Below are positions 7,430 to 59,271 of a stretch of 64,000 nucleotides of DNA, piece after piece. Numbering within the stretch: position 1 is the stretch's first letter; each line of letters begins with the position of its first letter. A model generated the notes under the pieces. The model saw nothing but the letters and a program-made list of their open reading frames with translations. It made no database searches and was not told where the DNA came from. The stretch spans positions 2,807,001 through 2,871,000 of the forward strand of contig NZ_AP017312.1 of assembly GCF_002355375.1 (NCBI RefSeq), read 5' to 3'. The translations under genes and the position numbers were made by a program. This DNA is from Aneurinibacillus soli (lineage in GTDB: Bacteria; Bacillota; Bacilli; Aneurinibacillales; Aneurinibacillaceae).

Positions 7430-8986
7430 TTATTTATTTGCTCCGTTTAAGACACTAAGTGAATTGTTAAGTGCAGATTTGCACTTGCTGGCATCAGGGT
7501 TTGATGAACGAACGGCTGCTAATACAACGTCAAGCGTTCCATCAATTTGGGTCCATGTTGTGCCATCTATTTTCCTAAGCTTAGGCTCAGATATGTCCCA
7601 TTGATGTTCCAAATCGTCAGCGCCTTTTTTCGCCGAAGTAAAGTCATTTGAGTTTACATATTTCAGCATATCACTTTCGATTTTAACAAAATCTGTTAAT
7701 TGTCCAGCTAATTTATTTTGTGGAGAATCGGTTTGCGATTTTCCACCTACTGTAGTTTTTGGAGAATTGGTTTGCGATGCTACTTTATTTGCTCCGTTTA
7801 AGACACTAAGCGAATTGTTAAGTGCAGATTTGCACTTGCTGGCATCAGGGTTTGATGAACGAACGGCTGCTAATACATCGTCAAACGTTCCATCGATTTG
7901 GGTCCATGTTGTGCTATCTATTTTTCTAAGCTTAGGTTCCGCTGTGTCCCATTGATGTTCCAAATTGTCAGCGTCTTTTTTCGCCGAAGTAAAGTCATTT
8001 GAGTTTACATGTTTTAGCATATCACTTTCGGTTTTAACAAAATCTGTTAATTGTCCAGCTAATGTAGCTTGTGGAGAATCGGTTTGCGATGCGATATTAT
8101 TGCTGCGCCAAATATAACCGCCTATACCGACAGCTAAGAAAATACACAGTACCACAATGGTTTGTGTCAAAACATTTTTCTTGCTTCCATTTGCTTGGTT
8201 TGTTTCTGCTGTTTCACTCTTTGCCGTTGTATCAATTTTTGTAACAGCAAGAAAAATGATTATCGCTAAAATAGCTATAAGAAAAATTACACTCGTAACG
8301 GTTGTCCCCAAACCTAACCCGCCATTAATTTTTGGTTGAGATAGGTAATCTCCTAATGATGCTCCGAGTGGACGAGTAAGAATATACGCAATCCAAAATG
8401 CTAATACTCCATCAAGTCTCAAAAATTTCCATGCTGAAAATACGCAAGCTATTATAATAACGACTGTTATTCCTGTGTTAAGATAACCAAGACCAAGTTG
8501 TTCGGAATATAAATCGCCGACTGCTGTTCCAAGCGCAAATGTGAAAAGAATGGTAAACCAATAGAAAACTTCTCTTTTTCTTGTATAAATCGAGTGTATC
8601 GAGAGTGTTTTTTCACTAAGATACCAAAAAAGAAACGTTAATCCTAGCAGCACGGAGAAAACTACTGTACTAAGCTCAAGAGGTACTCCCATACTGTCTG
8701 TCAAATTATCAGTTACCAATGTTCCAAACACGCTTATAAGAACAACCGTTAGCCAATAAATGCTTGGAACATATTTAGTTGCTCTGAATTGAAGAAACAA
8801 TACGATGAGAAACGCGATTCCCATAATTATTGTAGTGAGAGTTAAACCAAATCCAAGGCTGAAATTTAGGAAATCAGCAAATGTTTCACCGACAGTTGTG
8901 CATAAAATCTTGATTACCCAGAAGAAAATAGTAACTTCTGGTACTTTGCTAAGTAAAATTTTCAATTTGTTTTGGTTGGCTTCCAT
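7430..8986 (-). CDS. Multi-pass membrane protein (COG4705-like) with duplicated extracytoplasmic domain
   Basis: 518 residues starting at the ATG at 8986 (AAGGAAG 8 bases upstream). The first ~240 residues form about eight membrane helices in a repeated pattern with conserved acidic dipeptides (TTVGETFADFL, GTLVTDNLTD, GTAVGDLYSE, GASLGDYLSQ), as in the uncharacterised COG4705 membrane-anchored proteins. A further helix near 285-305 (ILTQT...FLAVGIGGYIW region) is followed by two copies of a ~100-residue domain, each starting SQTDSP and ending SALNNSLSVLNGANK, with one conserved Cys per copy. The copies are 117 residues apart and nearly identical in DNA. The gene is AT-rich and flanked by repeated hairpins, suggesting lateral arrival. 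Function unknown. Confidence 0.72.
   Translation of the reverse strand: MEANQNKLKILLSKVPEVTIFFWVIKILCTTVGETFADFLNFSLGFGLTLTTIIMGIAFLIVLFLQFRATKYVPSIYWLTVVLISVFGTLVTDNLTDSMGVPLELSTVVFSVLLGLTFLFWYLSEKTLSIHSIYTRKREVFYWFTILFTFALGTAVGDLYSEQLGLGYLNTGITVVIIIACVFSAWKFLRLDGVLAFWIAYILTRPLGASLGDYLSQPKINGGLGLGTTVTSVIFLIAILAIIIFLAVTKIDTTAKSETAETNQANGSKKNVLTQTIVVLCIFLAVGIGGYIWRSNNIASQTDSPQATLAGQLTDFVKTESDMLKHVNSNDFTSAKKDADNLEHQWDTAEPKLRKIDSTTWTQIDGTFDDVLAAVRSSNPDASKCKSALNNSLSVLNGANKVASQTNSPKTTVGGKSQTDSPQNKLAGQLTDFVKIESDMLKYVNSNDFTSAKKGADDLEHQWDISEPKLRKIDGTTWTQIDGTLDVVLAAVRSSNPDASKCKSALNNSLSVLNGANK
7433..8091. repeat. Tandem intragenic duplication, period 351 bp
   Basis: Bases about 7433-7740 and 7784-8091 are nearly the same, offset by exactly 351 bases (117 codons). 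The copies differ by scattered substitutions, several of them silent. The unit encodes the C-terminal domain of the 7430-8986 protein. Confidence 0.85.
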
Positions 8987-9187
8987 ATATTTCTTCCTTT
9001 CTTTACAGTGGTTTCCCACAAATTAATTTTTTGTTTTACCTCATTAGTATTACGCTAAATGTCTGCCCAAACATAAATTTGCCACTGAAAATTAAAAGTA
9101 AATTTTATTGGACTACAAATTAAATTATACCCCATACTATACTCCCTAAAAAATGAGAATACGATGAGAATTAAATGAGATTTATCA

Positions 9188-13117: not shown

Positions 13118-13128
13118 CATTTAACTCT

Positions 13129-13241
13129 CTTATCTCTCAGAGTACGCGTAAAGCCGCTCCGCTGGAATTGGCACAGCTTGTAGCATTATGCCGCCGCTGC
13201 CGGGTTTCATCGGGCCAGTCCCTCCACCTCTCTTGATAAGC
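13129..13241 (-). promoter_or_regulatory. SAM-I (S-box) riboswitch
   Basis: Read on the minus strand, the P1 stem is CTTATCAAGAG / GAGAGATAAG; between them lie GGTGGAGGGACTGGCCC, GATGAAACCCGGCAGC and GTGCCAATTCCAGC, the conserved S-box core segments. SAM binding favours the terminator at 13079-13117. It controls metN-metI. Confidence 0.95.
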
Positions 13242-13296
13242 TTCATATTAAGTTATAAATCAACAGATATGAATGTATCATGTCCGAACAATCGTG

Positions 13297-50680: not shown

Positions 50681-50728
50681 AAAAGAACCGGAAAGCCCTT
50701 GATAATACAGGGCTTTCCGGTTCTTTTT
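50681..50728. terminator. Bidirectional terminator
   Basis: AAAAGAACCGGAAAGCCCT / AGGGCTTTCCGGTTCTTTTT, perfect 19-bp stem with 9-base loop, between the convergent importer and phosphopantetheinyl transferase genes. Confidence 0.92.
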
Positions 50729-50734
50729 ATTATG

Positions 50735-51394
50735 CTACTCTCTTATCCAGTATCGTTCCATCTCCACATCCGTCATGTACGTAACACGCTCTGGCAAATC
50801 ACCCTCACTTACGCATAAACAAGCAATATGTGCTTCATCAATACAGTAATGACGAATACTCCAGCTATTCTTTGCTTCTATACTAAGAAAGCATGCAGGG
50901 GTTAACAGCCCTGTTCCTATTGCTTTGCCAATCGCTTCTTTTCGTGTCCATTTTTCATAAAAGAATGTCCATCTATTCGCTTCTTTTTGCTGCAATAGCG
51001 AGGCATATTCTTCTGAAGTCAGACACTCAAAGGCAACCTTACAATCAAGTGGTTGTATTTCCTCTATATCGACTCCGATTCTTCCTTTTTCGGTCATGGC
51101 ACATATAATCCATTTTCCTGCATGACTAAGATTAAAGTCCCCTTGCCAGCCTGAAGATAACGCCACATAAGGGCGCCCTCTTTTATCTCTTCTATACCAC
51201 TTCGCAACCTCTATGTATGGATAGTAATGCTGGAACATGTAATATACGGTTAAGATCCCAAGCAGTGCTCGTTGCCTATCTTCTATTCTTTTATAGTTTA
51301 GAATACGCTGCTGTTCTTCAGCCGACAACACGGAAAGAAAGCACGCCTGTTTACGATCAGAGATGTAACCCGTATTTCGTACAGCTATTATCAT
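50735..51394 (-). CDS. Sfp-type 4'-phosphopantetheinyl transferase
   Basis: 219 residues. FNLSHAGKWIICAMT, then GRIGVDIEEIQ (Mg-binding Asp and Glu) and FYEKWTRKEAIGKAIGTGL (catalytic KEA) are the Sfp signatures; length is typical. It overlaps the NRPS stop by 4 bases, so it should be made together with the synthetase and load its carrier domain with phosphopantetheine from CoA. A PPTase inside a one-module cluster suggests the system carries its own activation step. Confidence 0.93.
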   Translation of the reverse strand: MIIAVRNTGYISDRKQACFLSVLSAEEQQRILNYKRIEDRQRALLGILTVYYMFQHYYPYIEVAKWYRRDKRGRPYVALSSGWQGDFNLSHAGKWIICAMTEKGRIGVDIEEIQPLDCKVAFECLTSEEYASLLQQKEANRWTFFYEKWTRKEAIGKAIGTGLLTPACFLSIEAKNSWSIRHYCIDEAHIACLCVSEGDLPERVTYMTDVEMERYWIRE

Positions 51395-54300
51395 CTTGCT
51401 GTTACATGCTCTCTAGCAGGTGGGAAATACCCTATTTTAATGGCATAGGTTACTAGTGCCTGTACCAAATCATGATCTGGCTTCGGACAATCAATTCCTG
51501 CTCTCATTAGAATCTCTTGCGCTTCGTTGCATACATACCGATATTCAGAATCATGTGCACCATCCCCTTCAAGCTGGGCTATTGCTAACTCTAGCGCTTC
51601 GGCTTTTTCCCCTGGATCATCAACTTGGAACAAAGCCTCCCGATATCTTGTAGGTTCTAGTAGTGTAATCTCATATCCTAGCGACTGTAATTGTGTAATG
51701 AAGTCTGTATAGTGGATCTGCTCACTATTGCATATATGGAATGTTCTTCCTTCTATTTCTGGTTGACTAGCTAGATTTACAATCGCTCGGCTCGCATAAT
51801 CTACTGGTGTAATGTCGACGTACCAATCAGCAGCAGGAGCAATCCCCAATAGCAGCATTGCTTTTATCATCCGATAAAATGCATTGCTTTCAATATTACG
51901 CTGGAACTTTCCAGACTGTGTACGACCAACCAGATTGCCTACACGGTAAATCGTAGCCGGAATGCCTTTCATAGCTGTACGTACGATATTCTCTGCGCGA
52001 AGTTTGCTATTGGAGTATTCATTTTCTAGTACTACATCGTATGTGAAATCACCATTTTTCACAAAGTCATTCCATTGTCCACTCGCTGCTAAGTCTTCCG
52101 GCACACTTACAGTTGAGATGTGATGAAAATGAGCATCCTGCTTATTGCGGATTATGTCTAGCAAGGACGATGTCCCTCTTACATTTACTTTTTCAAACTG
52201 GGATGAATCTCCAAAATGACGAACATCCGCTGCACAATGAATGATCGCATCAATTTTTTCAGACAAATGGTCACGTACATCAGGAGATATACCGAGATCC
52301 GGTTCACTTAAATCCCCTTCGACAATCACAATTCTGCTTTTGAAAGCTTCTAGATTGCTATCAGGAAAATAAAAGTGCACCGTATTCAAAAGACGCTGTT
52401 CAGGCGAACCTCCATCAGAAACACGAACAAGGCAATAAACGTTTGCTTTTGTTTCCTGCAAAAGCTCATGTACGATATGTGCACCAAGATAACCGGTTCC
52501 TCCCGTTACAAGCACATTCCGGGCTGTATTCCACTCCCGCTTCTTTGCTCCTTTTATGACAGGGGGTTCCGTTAACTCTTTGATCTGGCGTTCTTCGTTA
52601 GACAATGCATGCACCGGTTCTGACTCTCCTGCTCGCTCCACGTATTCTGCTAACGCAGCAATCGTGCGGCAACGGAAAAAATCTTGTATTTTTAGGGAAG
52701 GAAACTTCGGTTTTAACAAAACAAGAATGCTGATGATTTTTAGCGAATGTCCGCCAATATCAAAAAAGTCATCCGCAACCCCGATCTCCTCTACACCAAG
52801 AACTTTCTCCCATGCTTTGGCGATACACTTTTCTGTCTCACTCTTCGGTTTTTCCCTATTTTTTTGTATCAGCGTAATTTTATCTTTTCTGGTAACTAAT
52901 AGTTTCCGATCAATTTTACCCGTTGGAGCAATCGGCATATTCTCTAAATAAATGAACTGTTCGGGAACCATGTAACCTGGTAACGATTGAGCAAGAAAGT
53001 TCCGTATTTTCTTTTCGTCTAGTGGTTGCATACTTCCTGTACTGTAGTAGGTTACTAGTCGTTTATTTCCATCTTCTTCTGTTTTTGCAACAACAGCTAC
53101 ATGTTCAACATCCGCCTGTTTTGCAAATACGTCTTCAATCTCATCTATTTCAATCCGGTGACCGCGAATTTTCACCTGATTATCCTTGCGTCCTACATAC
53201 TCGATATTGCCGTCAGCTAGCAATCGTACAATATCCCCTGATTTGTACAAATATTTCCCTGAGCTATCAGAGAACAAGTGAGGCACAAAAGCCTCCGCTG
53301 TTTTATCCGGCTTATTCAAGTATTCTTTGGCTAAGCCCACTCCTCCAATATACAGCTCTCCCGGTACATGAATCGGACACAGCTGTCCATTTGGATCTAC
53401 GATATACGTTTCATAATTATCATAGGGCTTTCCGATTGGAATATAAACCTGATCGGATGGAACTTCTTCTTCGATGAGATAAATCGTCGTCCCTACCGTA
53501 CACTCCGTCGGCCCGTATGCATTAAAAACCTTACTACCCAGTCCAAAGCGTCGTTGCCATAGACGTACGGTTTCGCCGGTTAGCGCTTCACCGGCTACGA
53601 TAATTCTTTTGATTGTTTGCAGTTTACGGATACTTTTATCTTCCAGATAGGCTGCAATTTGTTTAAAGAACGCAGTCGGAAGTGCCAGCGCTCCTGTTGC
53701 CTTAACTCTCTCGGCAGCATTAGCAAATTCTTCGATCGCCATCCGCTCCACATTAGACAGCAAATGTAAGCGTGCACCCCAGAGCAAAGCGGAAAACGTT
53801 TCGGCAATTGAAGCATCAAAACTATACGAAGCAAATTGAAGAAAAACATCGTCTGGCATACATTCATACGGTCCCCGCAAGTATACGAGCAAATTTACTG
53901 CACCCCTATGAAGAATAACCGTTCCTTTAGGATGACCCGTAGAGCCGGACGTATAAATCATGTAGGCAGGATCTACTGCCTCTGGATAGATAGAAAAATG
54001 TATAGGATTATACGGGAGCAACGCTGCATCATCTACATAAAGTACCTGAGCGGTATGTCCATCAAAGCAACTACTCTCCTGCAGAATGTTTGTATATTGT
54101 GTTTTCGTTATGATAAAAGCGGCACGGCTATCCTCAATCATGTATTCGATACGCGCTAGCGGATATTCCGGATCAATGGGTACATATACCCCTCCCGCTT
54201 TCATAATTCCGAGTAGACCTACTACTGTTTCGAGACTTCGTTCCATAAATAAAGCAACAAAATCACCTTTTTTCAACCCATGATCACACAACATCTGAGC

Positions 54301-55137
54301 GACCTGATCAGATTTGTGATGTAATTCTTCATAAGTAAGCTGTCCTTTCTCCGAGGAAAGGGCGATACGGGCAGGGAATTTTTCGGCTGCTTCCACAAAC
54401 AGAGCAGGAAGGGTTTTATCAGCCGGAAACTCTCTTTTTGTATCATTCAGCATCTCATATAGATTACATTCTTCTTGACTCAAGATGTCAATTTTTCGAA
54501 AATGAGCAGACGGTTGAGCTGCTAGTGTTTCAAGAATATTTTGGTATTGTTCAATAAAACGATAGATGGTCTCCCGCTTAAATGCCTTGCTATTAAAGGT
54601 CACCTCTACCCCATAACCATTCGAAAGTGAATGAATGTTCCATATAATCGGTACCGACTGTTCTCTGCATGCATCCCCCATCGTAAAGATAGCGGGATAA
54701 TGACTCGCTTCAAAAGCACCGAGGAAAAAACGGTGGTCGATCGCTTCTGATAATCGAATTTTCACTTCCGTTAGCAGCTGCTCAAACGTCTCCATTCCCG
54801 CAACAGAAATCCGAAGAGGAAGAATTCTCATTTCTTCCTCTTCCCCCTCACAAAAAGAAGGAACACCTACCAAAATGTCTTCCTCATATGAAAGACGATA
54901 TATCCAAACCAGATACGCAGACAACATGATCACGTCTATTTCACGATTACTATTTTGACATAGAGTTCGTGCCTTCTGTATCCAAGGTCCAGTGATAGAA
55001 GCCTTTACTGATTCCTTTGCAGCATCGTGTAACGAATACCGTGAGAAATCCGATGGTATTTGAATAACAGGCAGTGGCTCAGCTAGCCTATCAAACCAGT
55101 ATCCTTCTGCTGCTTTTTCTTGTCTGTACTCTTCCAT
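51391..55137 (-). CDS. One-module NRPS: partial condensation, adenylation, carrier, reductase
   Basis: 1,248 residues. Residues ~1-215 match only the second half of a condensation domain: EGYWFDRLAEPLPVIQIPSD resembles the usual post-active-site part and no HHxxxDG is present. About 225-745 are an adenylation domain (LTYEEL, MIYTSGSTGHPKGT, FASYSFDASIAETF, NAYGPTECTVG, YKSGDIVRL, GRKDNQVKIRGHRIE, PTGKIDR). About 765-830 are the carrier with DDFFDIGGHSL. About 870-1240 are a thioester reductase: VLVTGGTGYLGAHIVHELL, then YSNSKLRAENIV as the YxxxK catalytic pair. The carrier-bound acyl group should leave as an aldehyde, or alcohol after a second reduction. Layout resembles Lys2-type amino acid reductases. 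Confidence 0.9.
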   Translation of the reverse strand: MEEYRQEKAAEGYWFDRLAEPLPVIQIPSDFSRYSLHDAAKESVKASITGPWIQKARTLCQNSNREIDVIMLSAYLVWIYRLSYEEDILVGVPSFCEGEEEEMRILPLRISVAGMETFEQLLTEVKIRLSEAIDHRFFLGAFEASHYPAIFTMGDACREQSVPIIWNIHSLSNGYGVEVTFNSKAFKRETIYRFIEQYQNILETLAAQPSAHFRKIDILSQEECNLYEMLNDTKREFPADKTLPALFVEAAEKFPARIALSSEKGQLTYEELHHKSDQVAQMLCDHGLKKGDFVALFMERSLETVVGLLGIMKAGGVYVPIDPEYPLARIEYMIEDSRAAFIITKTQYTNILQESSCFDGHTAQVLYVDDAALLPYNPIHFSIYPEAVDPAYMIYTSGSTGHPKGTVILHRGAVNLLVYLRGPYECMPDDVFLQFASYSFDASIAETFSALLWGARLHLLSNVERMAIEEFANAAERVKATGALALPTAFFKQIAAYLEDKSIRKLQTIKRIIVAGEALTGETVRLWQRRFGLGSKVFNAYGPTECTVGTTIYLIEEEVPSDQVYIPIGKPYDNYETYIVDPNGQLCPIHVPGELYIGGVGLAKEYLNKPDKTAEAFVPHLFSDSSGKYLYKSGDIVRLLADGNIEYVGRKDNQVKIRGHRIEIDEIEDVFAKQADVEHVAVVAKTEEDGNKRLVTYYSTGSMQPLDEKKIRNFLAQSLPGYMVPEQFIYLENMPIAPTGKIDRKLLVTRKDKITLIQKNREKPKSETEKCIAKAWEKVLGVEEIGVADDFFDIGGHSLKIISILVLLKPKFPSLKIQDFFRCRTIAALAEYVERAGESEPVHALSNEERQIKELTEPPVIKGAKKREWNTARNVLVTGGTGYLGAHIVHELLQETKANVYCLVRVSDGGSPEQRLLNTVHFYFPDSNLEAFKSRIVIVEGDLSEPDLGISPDVRDHLSEKIDAIIHCAADVRHFGDSSQFEKVNVRGTSSLLDIIRNKQDAHFHHISTVSVPEDLAASGQWNDFVKNGDFTYDVVLENEYSNSKLRAENIVRTAMKGIPATIYRVGNLVGRTQSGKFQRNIESNAFYRMIKAMLLLGIAPAADWYVDITPVDYASRAIVNLASQPEIEGRTFHICNSEQIHYTDFITQLQSLGYEITLLEPTRYREALFQVDDPGEKAEALELAIAQLEGDGAHDSEYRYVCNEAQEILMRAGIDCPKPDHDLVQALVTYAIKIGYFPPAREHVTAR

Positions 55138-55187
55138 TACACTATCATCCTTTTATTGTTTTATATCTTTGGCTGTTATTCGTGTAA

Positions 55188-56924
55188 TTATAAAGTGAAA
55201 CGTTCAATCGTTTCTTTCAGCTCATCCACTACCGTATCCAGCGATTCCGTTTCCCTTGCAATCTCTTGCATCGATGCTAATTGTCGTACTGACGATGAAG
55301 AAACAGAAGAAGTGTTTCCAGCGAATTCCTGAGAAATTCCTGTCATTGACTCCATGGATGCTGTCACTTGTTGCGAACTAGCAGCCATTTCCTCAGAGGT
55401 AGCAGATACTTCCTGGATTTGCGTATTAATACCCTGAACCGCTTCTAAAATGTATTCAAAAGCTTGTCCTGCCTTTTGGACCACTTCCATTCCTACATTT
55501 ACTTCTTTCACCACATGATCCATAGACGAAATGGAATGAGAGGTTCTTCCCTGAATTTCCTGTACGAGATTTGCAATTTGTTGTGCTGATTGTGTGGACT
55601 GTTCAGCCAGTTTTCGAACTTCATCTGCTACAACCGCAAATCCTTTCCCATGCTCACCCGCACGCGCAGCTTCAATTGCTGCATTAAGGGCCAGCAAGTT
55701 TGTTTGGGAAGAAATCCCGGTAATCATCTCCACGATTTTGCTAATTTCCTGAGAGTGTTCTCCTAGCGACCTTACATCAGAAACGGATTTGTCTACAGAG
55801 AGACTGATACTTCTCATCTGCTCAACCACTTTCTTCGTGGTGCTATTTCCTTCTTCCGCTTCCAAAGCCATTGTGTTCGAAACTTCAGAGATGCTACCTG
55901 AGGTTATCGCTACATGCTGAATTCCCTCTGAAAGCTCTTGAGTAGCTTGAGAACTGGCCATGACACTCCCTACCTGTATCTCCGTACTGCTTGCGATCTC
56001 CTGAATCGCAGCAGAGACTTGCTGATTCTCTTGAACGGTATTCTTAATTTCTGATGATAGCCTTGCTGACAAATGAGAAATACGAGAAGATACATCCGTT
56101 ACATTGTGAATAATCCCACGCAGATTTGTGAGCATGGCAGAAAAGCTTTTGCCTAACTCGCCAATCTCATCATTGCCTTGTACTTCCGTGATTTCGATAT
56201 TCAAATTTCCTGCAGCTATCATATGTGCTTTCTCTGAAAGAGAATGAATCGGTGCCATCATACGTCTGATGATAAAGTAAATGAGCAATCCGCAAATGAT
56301 TGTAAAAGGTAGCATCATGTATAAAATCGTACTAGCCTCTTTCCAAGCTTTCTGGGTGACTTGCGCGACATTATAATCCACTACATAAACGGCAATGACA
56401 TTGTTTTGTTCGTCCAAAACAGGCGCAATTCCCGTTTTAAATTGACCATACTGGTCTCCATATATATCGGTAGCCTGAATTTTCTTCTGCTCAAACGCAG
56501 CTTTCATTAAAGCAAGTAAGTCTGGTGAGAGACCTACTTCGTTAAGATTTTGATTATACGGAACGCCTAATTTTCGAAGACTTGAACTCATGGAAACATT
56601 AAAGAACTGCCCGTTTTTATAGGAAGCTAGATATAGATTGTCAATAATCGTAGAATGGCCCATGATTTCATCCATCTTTTTGGTTGCTTGCAGTACATCT
56701 GGATTTTTATCGTTTGGCTGTGCAACAACGGATCGTACTTGATCTAGATTTACTTCTTCGGCTAGAATCGCCGCCGTGTCATGTAATTGTTTGCTCATGC
56801 TGCTTAAGTTACTATTTTTAATCATAAAATATGTAGCAGTACTACTTAAAATCCCAAAAACTAATAGTATACCAAGAGATGCAATAATAATTTTCCAACT
56901 TGCTGAGTTTCTAATTCTTCTCAC
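55188..56924 (-). CDS. Methyl-accepting chemotaxis protein behind a c-di-GMP riboswitch
   Basis: 578 residues from a GTG at 56924 that follows GGAGGGG at 6 bases. Helix 1 ([20 protein letters not shown]), an extracellular Cache-like sensor with [20 protein letters not shown] and GVAPVL-type strands ([20 protein letters not shown]), helix 2 ([20 protein letters not shown]), HAMP ([20 protein letters not shown]) and a signalling tip at [20 protein letters not shown]. The NRPS gene starts 50 bases after its stop with no hairpin between. The upstream c-di-GMP-I riboswitch should control this gene and probably the two that follow. Ligand unknown. Confidence 0.92.
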
Positions 56925-57023
56925 TACGTACCCCTCCAACTAAATATGTTGCCTTATCTCTAGCAGCACCAACCGTCTAAAATTTTCTAGTCTATAGCTT
57001 TTAGACATTAGCTCCAAAAAAAC

Positions 57024-57075
57024 AAAAAAACAATCCCCAAAAACTGATTCACAATGCAAACAGGGATTGTTTTTA
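57024..57075 (-). terminator. Terminator of the c-di-GMP riboswitch expression platform
   Basis: Minus-strand stem AAAAACAATCCC / GGGGATTGTTTTT with a 27-base loop, then TTTTTTTG. It lies directly after the aptamer and ~100 bases before the chemoreceptor gene. Confidence 0.85.
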
Positions 57076-57155
57076 GCGCAACCTGGCAACCGTAGTTATA
57101 AAAACCGTAGGCCCATAGCTTTGCGTCCCATCTTTTCAGAAGGTTTGCCAACGTT
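57076..57155 (-). promoter_or_regulatory. c-di-GMP-I (GEMM) riboswitch aptamer
   Basis: On the minus strand the order is GTTGGCAAACC, a stem-loop TCT-GAAA-AGA, TGGGACGCAAAGC, TATGGGCCTACGG, and GGTTGCCAGGTTGCGC. The GGCAAACC, GAAA tetraloop, GGGACGCAAAGC and GGCCTA segments in this order are the core of the GEMM-I aptamer. The terminator follows directly, so c-di-GMP should change read-through into the chemoreceptor operon; ON or OFF cannot be told without folding. Confidence 0.92.
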
Positions 57156-57278
57156 ACATATGTTATATATGCTATATATGTTATATATTTACCATGGGAA
57201 ATGTTACACCTCTTGTACAATTTTTGCAATATAAGTCGTAATAAATAGTTCTTTATTCCTCCTATCTAGATACACAAT

Positions 57279-57889
57279 TTACAGTACGTGTATGGTTTTA
57301 ATATGCTGTAAATTCCAATATACCGTTTCCCTATCTGCTGTAACAATAGTAAGCCTGTTATGATCAACCTTCTGCAGTAAGCCTATTTTTCATCGTTGTC
57401 TCCCCCATCTATGACAATGATGTGATTTTCTAATCTTTCACATTGGCTTTCAAACGTTCTAGCTAACGGCATCGAAACCGGATTAACAGGAAGATGTTGG
57501 TTACTCAATGAATAAGGTGCTGCATCTTGTGGATAGGGAATTAGCCACTTCACATGATTCATCGAAATAAACATAGTCTTATACACAGGAGAATAGAAGA
57601 CAAAGTAGTCGTTCATGATACTTGTCAAATATCCATGAATGGATTTATTCCCTGTCACGTAAATTTAAACAAATTGACCTTTAGCGTTTGCTAGCGCTTT
57701 ACGAAACGAGATCGAAGCGGAGTCACTTTCAATTGGTTTTTCTATTGGAATGTAGAGAAAAGATAGCGTGCTGTGATCATATACAACAATGATATCCAAT
57801 CCGGCATCTATGAGAGTACCTTTGTAGTAATTTTTTCCCGATACCTCGATATCTACATGTTTTCCTATGAAATGATTAAAATCATTCAT
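57279..57889 (-). pseudogene. DUF2642-type gene inactivated by an in-frame stop and a frameshift
   Basis: ATG at 57889 (GGGAGAA at 5 bases). GKHVDIEVSGKNYYKGTLID begins a fold repeated once in the gene. After GQFV a TAA (57666-57668) interrupts the second copy, which continues IYVTGNKSIHGYLTSIMNDY. The frame is then lost after GDNDEK near 57385, where the following segment IGLLQKVDHNRLTIVTADRE and WNLQHIKTIHV is in the next frame, ending at 57279. Restoring one codon and one base gives a single ~200-residue DUF2642 protein, a type found in spore-associated Bacillales proteins. If not a sequencing artefact, the gene is dead. It lies between the riboswitch-controlled operon and the transporter. 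Confidence 0.82.
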
Positions 57890-57924
57890 ATTATTTCTCC
57901 CTTCTTCTCGTATGGAATGGGATA

Positions 57925-59271
57925 TTAAAACAGCCAGGAGACCCAATAGTATAAAACAACTAACGTAAATAGCGTGGCAGGGGGAATGACGGTCAGTGTG
58001 ATTTTTATATACTGCCACCAGGTAATTTTTACTTTTCCGCGCCTTACGATATGCATCCACATCAGCGTAGCCAGTGTTCCCATCGGAAGAAGTAACGATC
58101 CCATGTCACTTCCAATGACGTTAGCCAGATACGAGATTTTTAAGGTGAGCGGGTCAAGGTGCATGTTCATGAGTGTAAGAGTTCCAACCATAAGCGCGGG
58201 ATGATTATTAAATATATTGGATAGAACAGAGAGGAGAGTTCCCATCATAACGCTTGCGTGCAACAAATTCCCGGAAGAAACGATCGGATGTATGAAATCA
58301 ATCAGCCATGCTGTTAATCCAATGTTGTGCAGGCCATAAATAATGACATACATACTAAAGGCGAAGACAAGAATATACCATGGCGTTTTTTTCAACATAT
58401 CCATCGGGGATATTTTTAAGTGAACCCAACGCCATCCTAACAGTACAAGAGAGCCAATGACAGCTACAATCGAGACAGGGATCGTCAAATACGAAGCAAT
58501 AAAGAGACTAACACGAACAGACAATACAAAAAGCAGAATGTTTCTCATAAAACGGGAACGTGCCTTATCCGATGAAGGAGATAACTTCGTTTTGAGAGGA
58601 TGATAAGCAGGTGTTGTAAGTCCAGATACTGTAGTAGGGACGGTCTGTGGAATGACTTTGTAAAAACGAAGAAACAGGAGCCCAACGAGGAACAACAAAC
58701 CAAGCGTGGCGGGAACAAACATCATCGCCGTATGCATATACAAGTCCATATGCACGATTTTTAATGCAATTAGATTCACAATATTGCTTACCCCAATCGG
58801 AGCGCTGGCAGCGGTGGCGATTAATCCCCCCGATAATAAATAGGGGATTTTTTGATGATTTTTCAAGCCCATATTATTGAGTAACATCACTAAAATAGGT
58901 GTTGTGATTAAAATACTGCCATCGTTATTGAAAAAGAGAGTCATGAGAAAACTTAAAAGATTGACATACCAGAATAAGCGAATGCCTGACCCCCTTGCTC
59001 TGGCAGCAAGCTTCTCGGCCATCCAGTGAAAGAATCCGAAGCTTTCTAAGACAATGGCCATCACAATCGTTGCGATAATCGTGATGGCTGCACCGCTTAT
59101 CGTTTCGGTTATCTGGACTAGATCAGATAACGAAACACTCCCACTGAGTAAGACAAGGATCGCACCCACTGTGGCCGGAATTCCTTCGTTCATTCCCTTA
59201 GGCCTCCAAAAAATAAAAACAAGCGTAACCAAAAAAGACAAGATGGTCATCCAAACCATAGGTTGGAACAC
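57925..59271 (-). CDS. ArsB/NhaD-type ion transporter
   Basis: 448 residues from a GTG at 59271, which has AAGGAAGGAG 7 bases before. About eleven membrane helices. NNDGSILITTPILVML in the first half and NNHPALMVGTLTLMN in the second mark the two inverted repeats of the ArsB / ion-transporter superfamily. ArsB exports arsenite, NhaD is a sodium/proton antiporter, and some homologues move citrate or other anions. No arsR or arsC is adjacent, so the substrate is open. Transcribed alone. Confidence 0.82.
   Translation of the reverse strand: MFQPMVWMTILSFLVTLVFIFWRPKGMNEGIPATVGAILVLLSGSVSLSDLVQITETISGAAITIIATIVMAIVLESFGFFHWMAEKLAARARGSGIRLFWYVNLLSFLMTLFFNNDGSILITTPILVMLLNNMGLKNHQKIPYLLSGGLIATAASAPIGVSNIVNLIALKIVHMDLYMHTAMMFVPATLGLLFLVGLLFLRFYKVIPQTVPTTVSGLTTPAYHPLKTKLSPSSDKARSRFMRNILLFVLSVRVSLFIASYLTIPVSIVAVIGSLVLLGWRWVHLKISPMDMLKKTPWYILVFAFSMYVIIYGLHNIGLTAWLIDFIHPIVSSGNLLHASVMMGTLLSVLSNIFNNHPALMVGTLTLMNMHLDPLTLKISYLANVIGSDMGSLLLPMGTLATLMWMHIVRRGKVKITWWQYIKITLTVIPPATLFTLVVLYYWVSWLF

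Follow-up and report, generated by a model that had tools for sequence, protein, structure and literature searches.

A c-di-GMP-I riboswitch, a chemoreceptor and a stand-alone A-T-R synthetase in one unit conserved in Bacilli: a possible self-made cue with its own receptor

Through in silico analysis of a 64,000-nucleotide stretch of the Aneurinibacillus soli genome (contig NZ_AP017312.1, positions 2,807,001 to 2,871,000; hereafter the window), a compact set of genes has been identified on the minus strand. The elements follow each other in the order: c-di-GMP-I riboswitch, terminator, chemoreceptor (MCP), synthetase with A, T and thioester reductase domains (A-T-R), 4'-phosphopantetheinyl transferase (PPTase) and closing terminator (Table 1). 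A preliminary description of this DNA had placed a GEMM-I aptamer with a terminator at 57024-57155, followed on one strand by an MCP, a synthetase starting 50 bases further on and a PPTase overlapping it by 4 bases. The aptamer and the terminator were both recovered at this site, and the arrangement of the genes was borne out, including the 50-base spacing and the 4 bases shared by the PPTase and synthetase reading frames. GTG 56924, preceded by GGAGGGG, is the most likely start of the MCP. Neither a strong promoter nor a strong terminator, either of which had been named earlier as evidence that would speak against a common transcript, lies between the MCP and the synthetase. No promoter-like site was found on the minus strand of the 50-base gap, and the sole terminator-like site near it, at 55214-55197 and still within the MCP gene's end, is a weak one of -4.5 kcal/mol without a U run; riboswitch, MCP, synthetase and PPTase are therefore likely to form one transcript. 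A sigma-D motility promoter was also sought 5' of the MCP, where nothing rose above noise.

Table 1. Elements of the unit, given as positions in the window
Feature	Position	Strand	Evidence
c-di-GMP-I (GEMM-I) aptamer	57074-57159	-	Rfam RF01051, 67.1 bits, E 5.6e-11, gathering score 35
Aptamer segment CGCAAAGC, predicted ligand-free partner of the terminator loop	57118-57125	-	7-8 of 8 pairs in 5 of 5 leaders
Second predicted antiterminator helix, GGTTG (57083-57079) with CAATC (57069-57065)	57065-57083	-	in five leaders, pairing maintained across G-C/A-U exchanges
Intrinsic terminator of the riboswitch, AAAAACAAUCCC/GGGAUUGUUUUU plus U run, 3' of the aptamer	57024-57074	-	stem-loop, -15.9 kcal/mol
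Terminator-loop segment GCATTGTG (GCTTTGTG in relatives), predicted antiterminator partner	57050-57057	-	conserved loop segment
MCP: TM, extracellular single-Cache, TM, HAMP, signalling domain	55188-56924	-	PF00672, PF00015
Stand-alone synthetase: half condensation domain, A, T, thioester reductase	51391-55137	-	PF00501, PF00550, PF07993, TIGR01733, TIGR01746, all over cut-off
Sfp-type 4'-phosphopantetheinyl transferase	50735-51394	-	PF01648, 58.2 bits (cut-off 25); PF22624
Strong terminator ending the unit, 3' of the PPTase	50681-50728	-	hairpin, -33.3 kcal/mol

The synthetase, a protein of 1248 residues, had been described as a one-module NRPS-reductase. This holds for the A, T and thioester reductase domains, which are intact: the carrier Ser, GGTGYLG and S-YxxxK are all present, and the scores reach 410 bits for TIGR01733 and 226.8 bits (cut-off 213.35) for TIGR01746. 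It does not hold for a full C-A-T-R module. A complete condensation domain with HHxxxDG was considered and rejected; the best PF00668 stretch covers profile positions 189-327 of 456, the reading frame begins within the domain, and only its C-terminal half is left. Such a half domain precedes the A domain in most members, and in the Lysinibacillus relatives even this half is missing. With only half a condensation domain the enzyme would activate and reduce one amino acid, a peptide being unlikely, and the product would be a reduced single amino acid. Whether this is an aldehyde, an alcohol or a pyrazine, and whether release takes two or four electrons, is more than the sequence can tell. The substrate code of the window's enzyme, read by motif alignment, is DAAAIAAVGK, and at least 15 distinct ten-residue codes, from DAWITAVVCK-like to DPMTVGNVSK, occur among the relatives. 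The amino acid used probably differs from lineage to lineage, and the receptor beside the enzyme is always of the same type. The PF01648 score places the third gene among the Sfp-type PPTases.

The first gene encodes a transmembrane MCP, with HAMP and MCPsignal matches far over cut-off and a model consisting of long terminal helices and a Cache core (AlphaFold, residues 3-220, TM-Cache-TM, mean pLDDT 89). The modelled Cache matches the single-Cache/PAS-like sensors CitA, DcuS, WalK and KinD, and also the Cache of the amino-acid receptor Tlp3. A search of PDB sequences with the sensor-domain profile returned no relative, so that a ligand could not be transferred. Every linked receptor carries three invariant residues, Tyr153-x-Asp155 and Asp181 in the numbering of the model. 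Their spacing recalls that of Tyr144 and Asp173 in PctA, a pair retained by amine sensors, where the carboxylate-binding Arg is lost (PMC10104139). As in the dCache_1AA and dCache_1AM domains of PctA and PctD, a Tyr-x-Asp is followed by an Asp about 26 residues on, but the receptor described here has a single Cache and no equivalent of the carboxylate-binding Arg126. With its one PAS-like domain it falls outside the dCache_1AM amine sensors, only the Tyr/Asp part being analogous, by spacing. A ligand with an amino group and without a carboxylate, as the reductase would make, may fit this receptor; with only one Cache in the fold, the analogy is no more than a suggestion.

The pairing of the MCP with the A-T-R synthetase extends well beyond the window, and an operon with both genes is found in many soil bacteria. 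A scan of named genomes gave 34 relatives from Aneurinibacillus, Paenibacillus, Cohnella and Lysinibacillus, to which five whole-genome loci were added, and in all 39 loci an MCP lies directly upstream on the same strand, while the flanking genes otherwise differ. Wider searches detected the stand-alone enzyme in 50 of 399 Bacilli genomes (threshold 1e-160; some multi-module proteins are included in this count) and in 98 of 297 Paenibacillaceae genomes (threshold 1e-200). Among 35 stand-alone loci from diverse genera the MCP is upstream in 30, directly downstream in three (L189-L191, one Brevibacillus-like genus) and missing in two. After removal of three evident duplicates about 71 distinct Bacilli loci remain, about 69 of them with an adjacent MCP on the same strand. 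The two exceptions are L187, where an intact-looking A-T-R enzyme has no MCP, and L195, where the MCP is gone and the riboswitch directly precedes the synthetase (L195 2898-6856). The L195 enzyme lacks Asp235 of the A domain, the proline of GPTE and the catalytic Tyr of the reductase, which in this one case suggests decay once the receptor was lost. The conserved core is the MCP plus the A-T-R enzyme; the PPTase is present only occasionally, and the riboswitch, although common, is missing from many lineages.

Gene content within the family of the window points in the same direction. The enzyme is present in five of 11 genomes, and the same five have the riboswitch and an MCP orthologue of 56-100% identity (Fisher p 0.002 for enzyme and MCP); all four NRPS-bearing members other than the window's genome retain the order riboswitch-MCP-NRPS. 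No orthologous MCP was found in the six enzyme-less genomes of the family, whose MCPs match mainly in the signalling domain, G010 having a distant full-length receptor of 33% identity. A profile of the linked sensor domain scores 235-341 bits in 9 of 11 enzyme-bearing genomes, a figure that is partly so by construction because the receptors are in the alignment, and at least 235 bits in 1 of 32 genomes without the enzyme, a figure free of this effect (p 9e-7 for the difference between the two groups); all other matches stay at or below 98 bits. Distances between the NRPS proteins correlate with those between the MCPs, with r of 0.75 for the sensor domain, a value reached in none of 2000 permutations, and 0.93 for the signalling domain. 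The proposal that the linked MCPs form one clade was not supported by the trees, in which they fall into two coherent groups with the unlinked receptors L115 and L108 nested among them; a single origin of the linked MCPs is thus not established.

The direction of switching can be predicted from the leader. A terminator lies 3' of the aptamer in every leader examined, and in five leaders its stem is preserved by compensating changes; the aptamers orthologous to that of the window are those of L069, L070, L035 and L071. Pairing is possible between the 5' arm and loop of the terminator and the aptamer core CGCAAAGCUAUxGG. This core is the best duplex partner of the terminator 5' half in most of 14 leaders, and in 13 of the 14 the duplex is more stable than those of shuffled arms. 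The terminator is wholly outside the aptamer and cannot be opened by ligand binding, and because its 5' half can pair with the aptamer core, an OFF switch is predicted, with expression at low c-di-GMP. Folding of nascent transcripts predicts the antiterminator pairing as the minimum for three of five close relatives. The leader in the window has one mismatch that weakens this helix, and the predicted minimum there is a different structure, so that the OFF prediction for the window leans on the relatives. If the genes are indeed off at high c-di-GMP, the product would belong to the motile state.

A c-di-GMP-I riboswitch stands at the head of 15 loci from six families: five loci of the window's family and L184, L185, L186, L188, L192, L197, L199, L211, L212 and L195, the last without an MCP. 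The earlier claim of a single transcription unit under such a riboswitch is well supported by the anatomy and by this conservation. No riboswitch was found at the pair in the loci of Paenibacillus/Cohnella sensu stricto, Lysinibacillus and the Brevibacillus-like genus. The Paenibacillus, Cohnella and Lysinibacillus loci had suggested a restriction of the riboswitch to the window's family, a view overturned by loci of more families.

The host genome contains four c-di-GMP-I switches. One (L074 5957-6044, minus strand; 145956-146043 of its own genome) consists of an aptamer and a terminator before a 283-residue soluble MCP-like protein. Another (L075 8406-8491, minus strand; 2893405-2893490; 86.9 bits) abuts a 55-residue transposase-like fragment and is an orphan with no proper target visible. 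A further aptamer (L076 8551-8642, minus strand; 3663550-3663641) precedes an HD-domain protein, which may be an HD-GYP c-di-GMP phosphodiesterase and could provide feedback. In L192 two divergent c-di-GMP-I riboswitches stand back to back, at 9019-9109 on the plus strand and 8378-8464 on the minus strand; one serves the MCP-NRPS pair and the other the opposite side.

That the receptor and the product of the synthetase belong together, as the preliminary description had proposed, receives strong comparative support from the pairing in about 69 of 71 loci, the swapped order in one genus and the shared absence in genomes that lack the NRPS. Conserved adjacency shows a shared role, yet it is no proof that the receptor binds the product. 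With two such genes side by side across several families, cells may steer by a chemical that they make themselves. The reading preferred here, with a probability of roughly one half, is that the operon provides a chemical cue made by the cell together with a chemoreceptor dedicated to it, both switched by c-di-GMP. At high c-di-GMP the aptamer would fold, leaving the terminator free, and transcription would halt; at low c-di-GMP bases of the aptamer would pair with the terminator 5' half, and the operon would be read in motile cells. To judge from the intact domains and from what is known of the family, the A domain would activate one amino acid and load it onto the T domain, itself armed by the PPTase. 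The reductase would then set free either an amino alcohol or an amino aldehyde, the latter of a type that can dimerise to pyrazines. The released compound, or one simply derived from it, would leave the cell and bind the extracellular single-Cache of the MCP, which would signal to the chemotaxis array. The anatomy, the broad conservation and the integrity of the domains are observations; OFF switching, the reduced amino-acid product and its recognition by the receptor are inferences.

The pair might instead reflect a shared programme with no ligand relation, in which both genes are wanted in motile cells (or both kept off on surfaces) and the MCP senses some other cue, for example a nutrient. 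It is well established that c-di-GMP-I riboswitches commonly precede chemoreceptors, and a further switch of the host genome stands before a soluble MCP-like protein. But the pair persists in the genera where no riboswitch was detected and is kept where the order is swapped, and the partner always has the same sensor-domain type, never that of another of the dozens of MCPs; this explanation is accordingly judged rather unlikely. A mere chance neighbourhood, or a mobile cassette of two functionally unrelated genes, would agree with the patchy presence of the pair within genera and with its different genomic places. It is already disfavoured, and has a very small probability, given the count of paired loci against the controls, where an MCP was near other NRPS/ligase genes in only 1 of 26 cases, as a divergent gene at a multi-module locus.

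There is also a small chance that the product is a secreted antimicrobial or repellent, such as a pyrazine, while the MCP responds to the amino acid precursor or to a competitor's related compound, so that cells close in on a target or keep away from a poison of their own making. A Paenibacillus strain releases the antimicrobial 2,5-bis(1-methylethyl)-pyrazine (PMC5481530), and this compound is the expected dimer of a valine-derived aldehyde, of the kind expected from a valine A-T-R enzyme; the Asp/Tyr positions of the receptor, too, resemble the amino-group ligands of dCache domains sensing amino acids and amines (PMC10104139). Nothing ties the Paenibacillus pyrazine to the present gene, however, and neither a transporter nor an immunity gene is among the conserved neighbours of the pair.

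The reading as a self-made cue with its own receptor has partial counterparts among known systems. Units with a c-di-GMP-I riboswitch and a chemoreceptor share the RNA family and the chemoreceptor as first gene, but the present unit also holds a synthetase conserved with that receptor. The single-module A-T-R or reductase-ended synthetases PvfC (Pseudomonas, leudiazen/pyrazine N-oxide signal), Lys2 and MxcG (myxochelin) likewise release a reduced amino acid through A, T and thioester reductase domains, and products of PvfC act as signals; we know of no chemoreceptor partner described for any of the three. MxcG has a full C domain, in contrast to the half domain of most members here. By inspection of the listed loci, none of the pvf tailoring genes (PvfB-type N-oxygenase and partners) was recognised beside the pair. 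Signalling by valdiazen is noted in PMC11659414. By domain, the best NCBIfam match is AusA/AusB (aureusimine/phevalin), likewise a reductase-ended NRPS from Firmicutes accompanied by a PPTase of its own, although the equivalog scores lie far below their cut-offs (642.5 of 2500 and 67.6 of 225). AusA is a two-module dipeptide enzyme. Chemotaxis to autoinducer-2 (LsrB with Tsr) is also steering by a self-made compound; there the genes for the synthase, the binding protein and the receptor are unlinked and serve general functions, whereas here synthetase and receptor share one conserved operon.

Taken more widely, the loci could represent an undescribed and widespread autochemotaxis of Bacilli, in which each lineage has its own reduced-amino-acid signal and a single-Cache receptor in the same operon, c-di-GMP toggling both through one riboswitch. 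This extension is tentative and falls a little short of even odds; under it, the many substrate codes imply species-specific pairs of signal and receptor. No description of the operon was found in the literature, a weak absence as few subscription papers were covered. If the proposal is right, bacteria would move toward or away from a dedicated signal of their own under c-di-GMP control, and a role would be given to the orphan one-module synthetase of about one third of the sampled Paenibacillaceae. To our knowledge, the ligands of most bacterial chemoreceptors are unknown. Here the genome itself offers a candidate, the product of the neighbouring gene, in dozens of species and with many codes, which allows matched-pair tests.

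Several minor features were recorded in the course of the analysis. Downstream of the pair in L182 (7925-9401) there is a T-box leader with a tryptophanyl-tRNA synthetase gene, and such a gene flanks the pair in L189-L191 too, possibly by chance or for self-protection. Two small ORFs lie 5' of the window's riboswitch (57383-58060, minus strand); one, of 91 residues, resembles an N-terminal repeat of a 317-residue protein (L076 6328-7281) encoded near another c-di-GMP-I switch of the same genome. The window also contains a SAM (S-box) riboswitch at 13127-13242 on the minus strand (70.2 bits).
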